Assembly (NCBI RefSeq): GCF_002159535.1
Contig: NZ_NFIU01000012.1
Coordinates: 1-54,813, forward strand
Length of the DNA stretch: 54,813 bases
Reading direction: 5' to 3'
DNA from: Olsenella sp. An290
Lineage (GTDB): Bacteria > Actinomycetota > Coriobacteriia > Coriobacteriales > Atopobiaceae
Below, piece by piece: positions 3,727 to 44,246 of the stretch (the first letter of the stretch is position 1; each line of letters starts with the position of its first letter). Position numbers and translations under genes: made by a program. The notes below the pieces were generated by a model. That model made no database searches, was not told where the DNA came from, and saw only the letters and a list, made by a program, of their open reading frames with translations.

Positions 3727-3743
3727 GCTTCCTCCGTTTCGTG

Positions 3744-3819
3744 CCGTGCAAAGGGGACAGTCACTTTTGCACGGTGTCGCTGCGGCGACCGTGCAAAAGT
3801 GACTGTCCCCTTTGCACGG
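3744..3819. repeat. Long REP-like hairpin with a GGGGACAGTC core
   Basis: Two exactly complementary 31-nt arms, 3744-3774 and 3789-3819, flank a 14-nt loop. Each arm is itself an imperfect palindrome (GTGCAAA ... TTTGCAC) enclosing GGGGACAGTC. It lies between the binding-protein and permease genes inside the transport operon. A T-run is lacking, so it looks more like a repetitive extragenic palindrome than a terminator, though it could still tune expression within the operon. A copy of the TTCTTCTCGCC motif is adjacent (about 3835-3846). Confidence 0.85.
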
Positions 3820-3846
3820 CCGCCGCAACCTGCGTGTTCTTCTCGC

Positions 3847-13819: not shown

Positions 13820-13896
13820 GGTCAAAAGGGGACGGGTCCGTTTTCGCTGTCAAAACGGACCCGTCCCCTTTTGACCGCCGTCCCCTTTTGACCGCC
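13820..13896. repeat. REP-like hairpin with an extra half unit
   Basis: Perfect 25-nt arms at 13820-13844 and 13852-13876 (GTCAAAAGGGGACGGGTCC and its complement) enclose a 7-nt loop. A third partial copy, GTCCCCTTTTGACCGCC, follows at 13880-13896. The core AAAAGGGGAC is shared with the hairpins at 3744 and 44175, but the flanking bases differ. It directly abuts the truncated end of the AraC remnant. Confidence 0.85.
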
Positions 13897-21570: not shown

Positions 21571-21770
21571 GCCCATAATTCGCAACATTCCGGCCGACCT
21601 AAGCCTCCGGAGGGGGCCGGACAAGTCTCCCCCCCTCCTGCCATGAGCCCGATTTTCGCAACGTCCTTCTCGCCCTTGGTGACATGAGCCCAAAACTCGC
21701 AACGCCCTCCCCCGCATCCGCCGCGTCAGCCTCACGTGGGAGTGACACAACCCCAAAACTCGCAACGCTC
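21571..21770. repeat. Cluster of degenerate direct repeats in the feoA-ppk2 gap
   Basis: Within the divergent gap 21135-21883 (no gene seen), a unit like ATGAGCCCAAAACTCGCAAC recurs in one orientation: about 21571-21590 (diverged), 21642-21663, 21683-21703 and 21744-21767. The third and fourth share CCAAAACTCGCAACGC exactly. A copy of the dispersed motif (TCCTTCTCGCCC, 21664-21675) sits between the second and third. Units are irregularly spaced (about 71, 41 and 62 nt), so this is not a CRISPR. It could be a protein-binding array or residue of repetitive elements. Confidence 0.6.
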
Positions 21771-29130: not shown

Positions 29131-29277
29131 ATTGGGTAGCCTGTTTGATATGACTCGTCTTCAAACGCGAAAAAGCGCTCAGGCTCGGGCAAAACCTCGC
29201 AATAACGCGCAATTTCTCTCAGTTTTGGCGTCGTTTGCACCATCCGAGAAGAACCAATATCAAACTCACCACCCAAT
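29131..29277. repeat. Candidate miniature inverted-repeat element 1
   Basis: The left end ATTGGGTAGCCTGTTTGATAT-like (29131-29151) is matched in inverse by the right end ATATCAAACTCACCACCCAAT-like (29257-29277), roughly 21-bp imperfect terminal repeats about 147 bp apart. The inside has no gene; it contains CAAAACCTCGCAATAACGC (related to the 21571 repeats) and a GAGAAGAACC motif at 29246. It lies in the 329-bp gap between the fluoride channel and the ABC exporter. The same ends recur at 41975-42134. Confidence 0.6.
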
Positions 29278-33519: not shown

Positions 33520-33691
33520 TGCCGGCGGTTACGTACACTGCCGGCGGTTACGTACACGAAAAAAGGTTCTTCTCGCCAACGCGTTTTATATTTGCGCAGG
33601 TAGACGCCTCACGTTCCTGTGTACGTAACCGGAAAGAATGTACGTAACCGACGCTCGTGTACGTAACCGCCGGAAGCGTACGTACCCGGCG
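33520..33691. repeat. Six copies of a GTACGTAACCG tag around the dispersed motif
   Basis: TGCCGGCGGTTACGTACAC occurs twice in exact tandem (33520-33538, 33539-33557). The inverse tag GTACGTAACCG follows four times, near 33621, 33640, 33659 and, diverged, 33678. Between the two orientations is TTCTTCTCGCC (33568-33578), and a second core motif copy begins at 33690. The 172-bp block can fold in several ways. The whole gap 33392-33800 between marR and aspS holds no gene. Confidence 0.8.
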
Positions 33692-35570: not shown

Positions 35571-35699
35571 GGGTGCCTTTCTCGTCCTGCCGCCCCGTGC
35601 CGTACGGGCGGCGCCTTCTGGATGGTCGCGGCGTGCGTAGACGGCGCGCGCCGCAGCGGGGGTGATTGTACTACGGGCGCGTTCCGCAACGCTCCGCGG

Positions 35700-41974: not shown

Positions 41975-42134
41975 ATTGGGTGCTAGGTTTTATATGGCAG
42001 GGCGCCGTGCACGCTAGCCCTGCGCTCGCGAGAAGAACAACCCGCCCAAACCCTGCCAAACCCGCTTCGGGACATCGCACTCGACGTCAAAATCGTCCGT
42101 TCTTCTCGGCCAATATCAAACTAGCCACCCAAAA
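41975..42134. repeat. Candidate miniature inverted-repeat element 2
   Basis: The left end ATTGGGTGCTAGGTTTTATA (from 41975) mirrors the right end ATATCAAACTAGCCACCCAA (42114-42133), about 20-bp terminal repeats some 160 bp apart. Two dispersed-motif copies lie inside in opposite orientations (GAGAAGAAC near 42031 and GTTCTTCTCGG near 42099). A third end copy, GATATCAAACTGGCCACCCA, follows at 42225-42243. The gap 41828-42528 has no gene. Confidence 0.6.
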
Positions 42135-42257
42135 CCGCCGCGCTGGCCCCGGATTCGGCGAGTCGGACAGCGCGCAGCGCGTCCGGACCACTTTACGGGC
42201 CGAAAGCACCATCAAATGTTATTCGATATCAAACTGGCCACCCAAAACCGGAGCTTC

Positions 42258-42347
42258 GGGGCGCCGCGGACGGGCCCGGGCGACGGACCAAGGGGCGCCG
42301 CGGACGGGCCTGGGCGACGGACCAAGGGGCGCCGCGGACGGGCCCGG
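42258..42347. repeat. 34-bp GC-rich tandem repeat, about 2.6 copies
   Basis: The unit GGGGCGCCGCGGACGGGC..., continuing CGACGGACCAA, starts at 42258, 42292 and 42326. The first two full copies differ by one base (GGGCCC versus GGGCCT) and the third is cut short. There are no spacers, so it is not a CRISPR. It lies upstream of the CoA ligase gene, next to the repeat ends at 42225. Confidence 0.85.
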
Positions 42348-42528
42348 TCGGCAGCCCAAGAACCGAACGGCACCCAGGACCCGGGCGGCGGGCCGAGAGA
42401 CGGCGCGCTCGATGGGCCCGCCCCTCCGGGCCACGTCACGGGCGCGTTACCACTCGCCGGACGGGCGCTTCCGGGCGGGCGCCGCGCGCCTATCATGTAA
42501 CGACACGTCACTGAACTGGGAGAGACGC

Positions 42529-44174: not shown

Positions 44175-44246
44175 GCGTGCAAAGGGGACAGTCGCTTTTG
44201 CACGCCGCCTCGTATGCGTGCAAAAGCGACTGTCCCCTTTGCACGC
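44175..44246. repeat. REP-like hairpin between ligase and iorA
   Basis: Exactly complementary 31-nt arms (44175-44205 and 44216-44246) enclose a 10-nt loop. The unit differs from that at 3744 at the inner tag (GTCGC for GTCAC) and the outermost bases, yet shares GCAAAGGGGACAGTC. Both arms carry the same substitution, so they have stayed complementary. It is intergenic in a co-directional pair and ends 14 nt before the iorA start. Confidence 0.88.

Follow-up and report, generated by a model that had tools for sequence, protein, structure and literature searches.

A facing-tag element between a MarR-type gene and aspS

The window, i.e. the whole stretch of 54,813 nucleotides analysed here, comes from a gut actinobacterium and forms a single contig of its draft genome, 2.15 Mb in total. 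Lying between aspS and a gene of the MarR type, an element at 33526–33688 is made of six copies of the tag GTACGTAACCG, five of them exact and the outermost right one mismatched once, compared with a mean of 0.37 and a maximum of 2 copies in 100 shuffles. The initial annotation had described six tags at 33520–33691, two facing four, with a dispersed motif between them, and this layout is correct: two copies lie on the minus strand and four on the plus strand. The left arm (33526–33555, minus strand) consists of two exact tags at 33526–33536 and 33545–33555, 19 bp apart, and the right arm (33621–33688, plus strand) of four tags starting at 33621, 33640, 33659, and 33678, also 19 bp apart, the last being the mismatched copy. 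From the inner left tag to the inner right tag runs a centre unit of 87 bp (33545–33631, plus strand), which holds the dispersed motif GTTCTTCTCG at 33566–33575 (plus strand) and the core GCAGGTA at 33596–33602 (plus strand), which is offset by 51 bp from where the inner left tag starts. Relatives of the aspS gene group the genome with Thermophilibacter and former Olsenella in the Atopobiaceae. An aspS RNA motif (RF02930) matches at 35575–35655 on the minus strand, within the called aspS frame and very near its start.

Family A elements share one plan across the genome

The genome contains 68 exact copies of GTACGTAACCG and none of the reversed control word, and all 68 fall within 18 elements of a single plan, which we call family A, with no solitary exact tag. 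Each element has a minus-strand left arm, a centre of exactly 87 bp including both inner tags (18 of 18 elements), and a plus-strand right arm; the arms vary in length, and their tags recur with a period of 19 bp. Among 108 spacings between successive tag starts within 130 bp, 106 measure 19 (86 cases), 38 (2), 76 (15), or 95 bp (3), and the remaining two (118 and 126 bp) separate neighbouring elements. A search of the genome with a sequence model returned the same 18 elements and two weaker places, one bearing the related tag GGGTATGTACAC (C1:248108) and one matching the centre only (C1:68069). The tags had been proposed to be locus-specific. Since GTACGTAACCG is the tag of all 18 copies, which are spread over many contigs, and the third tag of the window also recurs at other places, they are instead family tags that change between species.

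All 18 elements are intergenic according to our own gene caller. Their 16 intergenic regions, two of which hold two elements each, are convergent (6), divergent (4), or tandem (6); the scanned neighbour genes have no function in common, and no gene lies between family A tags in the draft assembly. None of the 18 elements is found on contigs C12, C23, and C34 (632 kb). A role as macrodomain marker was considered and rejected: five of the loci could be placed on the sampled parts of G006, a genome in one contig, near 0.23, 0.66, 1.11, 1.32, and 1.54 of its 2.18 Mb, and with so wide a placement no single chromosomal region is seen. In this genome (G000) there are three close pairs of family A elements (C1:239.5–239.9 kb, C9:4.3–5.9 kb, and C42:50.4–50.9 kb), and the two centres are oppositely oriented in each.

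The shared core is off-centre and distinct from the dispersed word

Among the 18 elements, mean pairwise identity is 0.925 in the tag columns and 0.43 in the spacers between tags, and within the centre it is 0.73 in the stretch that ends in the core and 0.47 in the rest. The core keeps its offset of 51 bp from the inner tag throughout family A, and its GGTA is invariant (18/18); its best form is CATWTnnGCAGGTAGA and a wider form is TTTnnSCAGnT. As a control, 108 flanking 116-mers were scanned for the T-run plus core pattern; three contain it, none of them at offset 51, so the core is not equally common in gaps generally. Variants in the family A arms are uncompensated in the opposite arm, which argues that the tags are conserved as double-stranded sites, and pairing of the inner arms does not rise above shuffles. 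A hairpin at the core itself (CAGGT n5 ACTTG) was tried and rejected, as its left half is constant, its right half loose, and no good two-sided change was present.

The initial annotation took GTTCTTCTCG for the shared core, and this assignment does not hold. Even with the GTCCTTCTCG form included, the centre slot is filled by the word, in the form GTYCTTCTCG, in only 10 of the 18 elements, and the word is a separate one dispersed over genes and gaps. The window alone has 61 matches to GTTCTTCTCG at ≤1 mismatch against 3.5 expected, and the word is frequent in gaps generally as well as in genes. In our sample of 455 kb (stretches L197–L236), GTYCTTCTCG, i.e. CGAGAAGAAC and CGAGAAGGAC, is the most over-represented 10-mer, with 108 and 119 copies against 1.1 and 2.8 expected, on both strands; 63 and 99 of these are inside genes and 45 and 20 in gaps. 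It is also frequent in G006, G013, and G021, and it looks like a DNA-uptake-type word, a kind known from other phyla.

Other repeats in the window

A different tag, TATCAAAC..CCACCCAA, builds two further elements in minus-then-plus order, which we call family 2. The first is a facing pair at 29132–29276, with its minus copy at 29132–29150 and its plus copy at 29258–29276; the second, at 41976–42245, has a minus copy at 41976–41994 (three mismatches) and plus copies at 42114–42132 and 42227–42245. The five window matches at ≤3 mismatches compare with none in 100 shuffles, bearing out the third tag noted earlier at 29131–29277 and 41975–42251, and neither element has a clear core. Three direct 34-bp GC-rich repeats (42258–42359) adjoin the second element.

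The repeat at 21571–21770, which had been placed with the others, is not a facing-tag element. It consists of two exact and two degenerate copies of CAAAACTCGCAACG in one orientation and is set apart as a direct 16-nt repeat (GCCCAAAACTCGCAAC and variants) with four copies at 21571–21767 on the plus strand. AAAACTCGCAACG at ≤2 mismatches has two matches in the window, a number reached by 14 of 100 shuffles, and a looser form of the CAAAACTCGCAACG repeat occurs at six places in the genome, three of which are the copies at 21571–21770, against two for the control. Long GGGGACAG hairpins (e.g. GTGCAAAGGGGACAGTCACTTTTGCAC) lie at 3743–3820, 13820–13893, and 44175–44246, and hairpins of this type were also seen at L249 and L250, the same class as around both RAYT-type genes of this genome.

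The same plan carries other tags in related species

Adjacent family A tags are present in 5 of 120 genomes of the order. This genome has 86 such places; G013, G021, G028, and G029 have one or two apiece, and in their family A elements a distance of 95 bp, likewise a multiple of 19, separates the inner tags. Two other tags have their own distributions. Tag B (GACTTTTGCACGAGC) occurs in 10 of the 120 genomes, with 87 copies in G001, 80 in G010, 50 in G027, and none here (control 0), and tag C (GCCGAGTGTACGA) also in 10, with its maxima in G004 (18) and G006 (17) and one copy here (reversed control, 2 over all genomes). Further facing tags, around centres that often contain GCWGGTM, were found at aspS loci of other species, within this genome at L201, L212, and L075, and in the parts of G006 that were sampled. 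A count of inverted-repeat places in 455 kb of this genome gave 40, against 6 in a mirror control that was counted unmerged, the 40 being a mixture of facing-tag elements, GGGGACAG-type hairpins, and some matches within genes.

The spacing is rigid within each family. In 60 fetched stretches, some of which overlap, copies of tag B face each other at 101 bp in 63 cases and at 100 bp in three, with none at 98, 99, or 102–104 bp. Removal of duplicates leaves 54 family B elements, 51 of 116 bp and three of 115 bp, and the best match to GCAGGTA lies at offset 51 in 45 of 46 non-redundant 116-bp elements (21 of the matches exact), the orientation having been picked by fit at that offset. Exact facing pairs of tag C (n = 15) are spaced at 91 (three pairs), 101 (two), 102 (six), 112 (three), and 113 bp (one), i.e. 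in steps of roughly one helical turn, while two tag C pairs in other genera face outward. The TTTnnSCAGnT core was recognised in seven of 11 family C elements, at offset 61 in six and 60 in one, and was not found in the other four. A further 14 elements of other families, selected for holding a core, have it at offsets of 50–52 (three elements), 60–63 (eight), 65 (one), or 74–76 (two), counted from where the arm starts. The earlier proposal of one modular intergenic element is thus upheld as to a single plan with different tags and a shared core across species of the order, and fails as to locus specificity and GTTCTTCTCG as the core; its extension to all the named loci loses 21571–21770 and includes, at 29132 and 41976, elements with no clear core. 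The literature on intergenic repeats and uptake sequences in Olsenella, Coriobacteriia, Atopobiaceae, and Collinsella yielded no description of such elements, in a search that left subscription journals mostly uncovered and therefore says little on novelty.

Tags and spacing are constrained at orthologous loci

Orthologous loci were chosen by flank and not by tag, by matching stretches G010:C8 and G001:C7 at the DNA level to five genomes each; their seven elements gave 12 two-flank matches. Within the close trio G001, G010, and G027, the element is present in all nine matches, at six loci, with neither its orientation nor its length altered. In these nine comparisons the tags have changed at 8/270 positions (3%) and the centres at 166/774 (21%), and 20 internal gaps are found in the adjoining 60-bp flanks and none in the centres. 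Tags and spacing are therefore under constraint in place, and the difference between tags and centres, with no change in centre length, fits poorly with decaying mobile DNA or a paired hairpin. The more distant genomes G003, G012, and G015 keep the element in none of three orthologous matches. At the orthologous site of G012 we observed a facing pair of another tag, resembling family 2 of the window.

A second ortholog set was chosen by tag, which biases tag conservation within it. Its orientation is the same in 16 of 16 pairs. Ten of these pairs were closely aligned; in two, flanks near 90% go with centres of 0.38 and 0.47 and no gap, and two elements that are one base shorter in the centre touch three of the ten pairs.

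Copying, insertion, and inversion

The genome G006 has the gene pair that flanks one family A element here, about 30 bp apart and with the element absent, and in the draft assembly of G027 two copies separated by 2.2 kb are identical over 116 bp and share just 16 further bases, all on one side. The elements are thus gained and lost between species, are copied on occasion, and remain under constraint for as long as they stay. In G021:C6, a family A element with short bits of flank occurs twice, at 92471 and 98481 (L080 and L083), 6 kb apart and in opposite orientation, and the repeated copy unit exceeds the element in size.

The G006 and G027 cases would be expected of non-autonomous MITE-like elements, whose tags would be ends for a transposase acting in trans and whose copies would spread and then decay in place. 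MITEs such as the Correia elements of Neisseria are small, non-coding, and intergenic, with terminal inverted repeats and an internal protein site, and the elements described here share all of these traits, the protein site being putative. Their species-restricted high copy numbers, the several families per genome, and the lack of a common gene context also agree with this reading, which we nevertheless consider unlikely. A target duplication of 4–9 bp did not exceed shuffles in 46 family B elements, and comparison of G013 with G028 gave no usable insertion boundary. Viral contigs, plasmids, and phages had no match to family A, and no autonomous relative with family A ends was seen in the draft genome or in the viral, plasmid, and phage records. 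Decay does not predict the constraint on tags and geometry, and a further difference from MITEs is that the tags change while the core stays.

Two other kinds of element are alike in part. Lambda-type attP has arm-type sites on both sides of a core site in a complex of about 200 bp; arm-type sites also flank a core here, but in many chromosomal copies and with no linked integrase. The integrase at C2:3060–4319, the only one near an element, was rejected as a partner, being 97% identical in the tag-less G004 and without a match in the tag-bearing G013 and G021. At L060 (G000:C2) and L254 (G004:C10) an integrase gene whose protein is 97% identical between the two species adjoins in each case what looks like the 3′ end of a tRNA; in L060 a complete tRNA was not detected by ARAGORN. 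BOX and BIME repeats are modular and intergenic with a variable number of units, as are the present elements, which differ in their strict spacing, a core in phase with the tags, and tag turnover.

A distinctly unlikely reading is that the elements are REPINs, inverted doublets moved as single-stranded hairpins by a RAYT (REP-associated tyrosine transposase). As set out in PMC3116915, a REPIN consists of a short conserved word and its inverted copy, set at a fixed distance with a less conserved spacer between them; REPINs lie between genes and form several families whose words differ between species. The elements here are alike in all these respects, and RAYT genes are at hand, with two in this genome and some in 22 of 31 relatives searched. 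They differ from REPINs in an unpaired spacer, a core at a fixed offset, the tandem family A arms of 19-bp period, and the absence of a RAYT beside the tags. The facing centre columns of family B pair less than shuffles (0.276 vs 0.374). The 12 RAYT loci examined, two of which represent one gene, include one of G001's two RAYT genes; they carry no family A tag and a single degenerate family B tag (L194), and RAYT was rejected as the partner of the tags; both RAYT genes of this genome are flanked by GGGGACAG-type hairpins, another class.

Conserved double-stranded words at fixed spacing near genes could also be operator arrays of a transcription factor regulon. We regard this as very unlikely, given that six of the 16 intergenic regions are convergent and would not be expected to hold a promoter, that the scanned neighbours have no common function, and that exact tags are never solitary. 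Invertible switches, in which a recombinase would flip the centre between facing tags, are supported by one orthologous locus, G013/G028 vs G021, at which the plus strand gives the match for the flank (92%) and the minus strand that for the centre (87%). As a general property, inversion was rejected, since this case stands against 25 colinear comparisons (9/9 flank-chosen and 16/16 tag-chosen), and screens of 80 aspS loci found no centre inversion: the minus-strand candidates there numbered 51, of which 48 are of about 300 bp and all involve L164, L167, or L170, and three are short and are palindromes or terminator arms. Such switches are highly improbable. RNA hairpins, e.g. terminators or small RNAs, can hardly be credited either: single-sequence folding of ten elements beats shuffles (z from −2.0 to −11), as expected of any inverted repeat, but two-sided changes occur in 0 of 22 predicted pairs, tag variants go uncompensated, the centre halves do not pair, and an Rfam search of the window and 14 loci at the gathering threshold returned two tRNAs and the aspS motif only, with no family over the 18 elements.

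A looped protein–DNA site as a model

The elements have one plan with rigid spacing, a core common to several tag families, tags that turn over between species, and constraint in place. This combination points to an undescribed family of protein-bound DNA sites, and from it we infer proteins that bind the tags and the core, and looping of the DNA between them. The likeliest reading, to which we give an even chance, is that a sequence-specific DNA-binding protein docks at each element and that the resulting complex closes over a short loop of DNA, with selection keeping the sites in place. The same protein would bind the two facing tags, or the two facing tandem arms in family A, and the off-centre core TTTnnSCAGnT would be bound by a second protein or a second domain. 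The sites would lie on one face of the helix, as suggested by the fixed lengths and the whole-turn steps (91, 101–102, and 112–113 bp from tag to tag; about 51 or 61 bp from tag to core), and the bound proteins would join over a loop of roughly 60–110 bp into one complex. Each tag family would have its own co-evolving protein; the fact that tags change jointly from one species to the next suggests co-evolution of a protein and its sites, as proposed for RAYTs and REPs (PMC3116915). As a first guess, a resident recombinase- or transposase-like protein may keep the elements and occasionally copy them, a REPIN-like life without the REPIN hairpin.

Some observations sit uneasily with this docking model. 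The 19 bp at which family A tags recur do not make up a whole number of helical turns, and the core is missing or unrecognised in four of 11 family C elements and in both family 2 elements of the window (29132 and 41976). The outward-facing tag C pairs, the centres shortened by one base, the absence of the element from all three orthologous sites in the more distant genomes, and the choice of orientation by fit in the family B offset analysis also count against it. For a host function, turnover of tags from species to species is odd.

It is possible, if on balance doubtful, that the elements represent a novel kind of chromosomal element in bacteria, namely looped nucleoprotein sites: plan and core would be retained throughout the order, while from one species to another all the recognition tags of a genome would switch jointly, as though the protein or guide RNA that recognises them were pressed to change its target. 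If true, bacteria would have here their own counterpart of the rapidly changing PRDM9 sites of mammals. For the Coriobacteriales, the elements define a class of intergenic DNA that geometric rules and not sequence serve to recognise, with dozens of sites per genome at which selection on spacing and tags can be measured, and they raise the questions of which protein reads tags that vary between species and why the sites are kept at convergent, divergent, and tandem gene borders alike.
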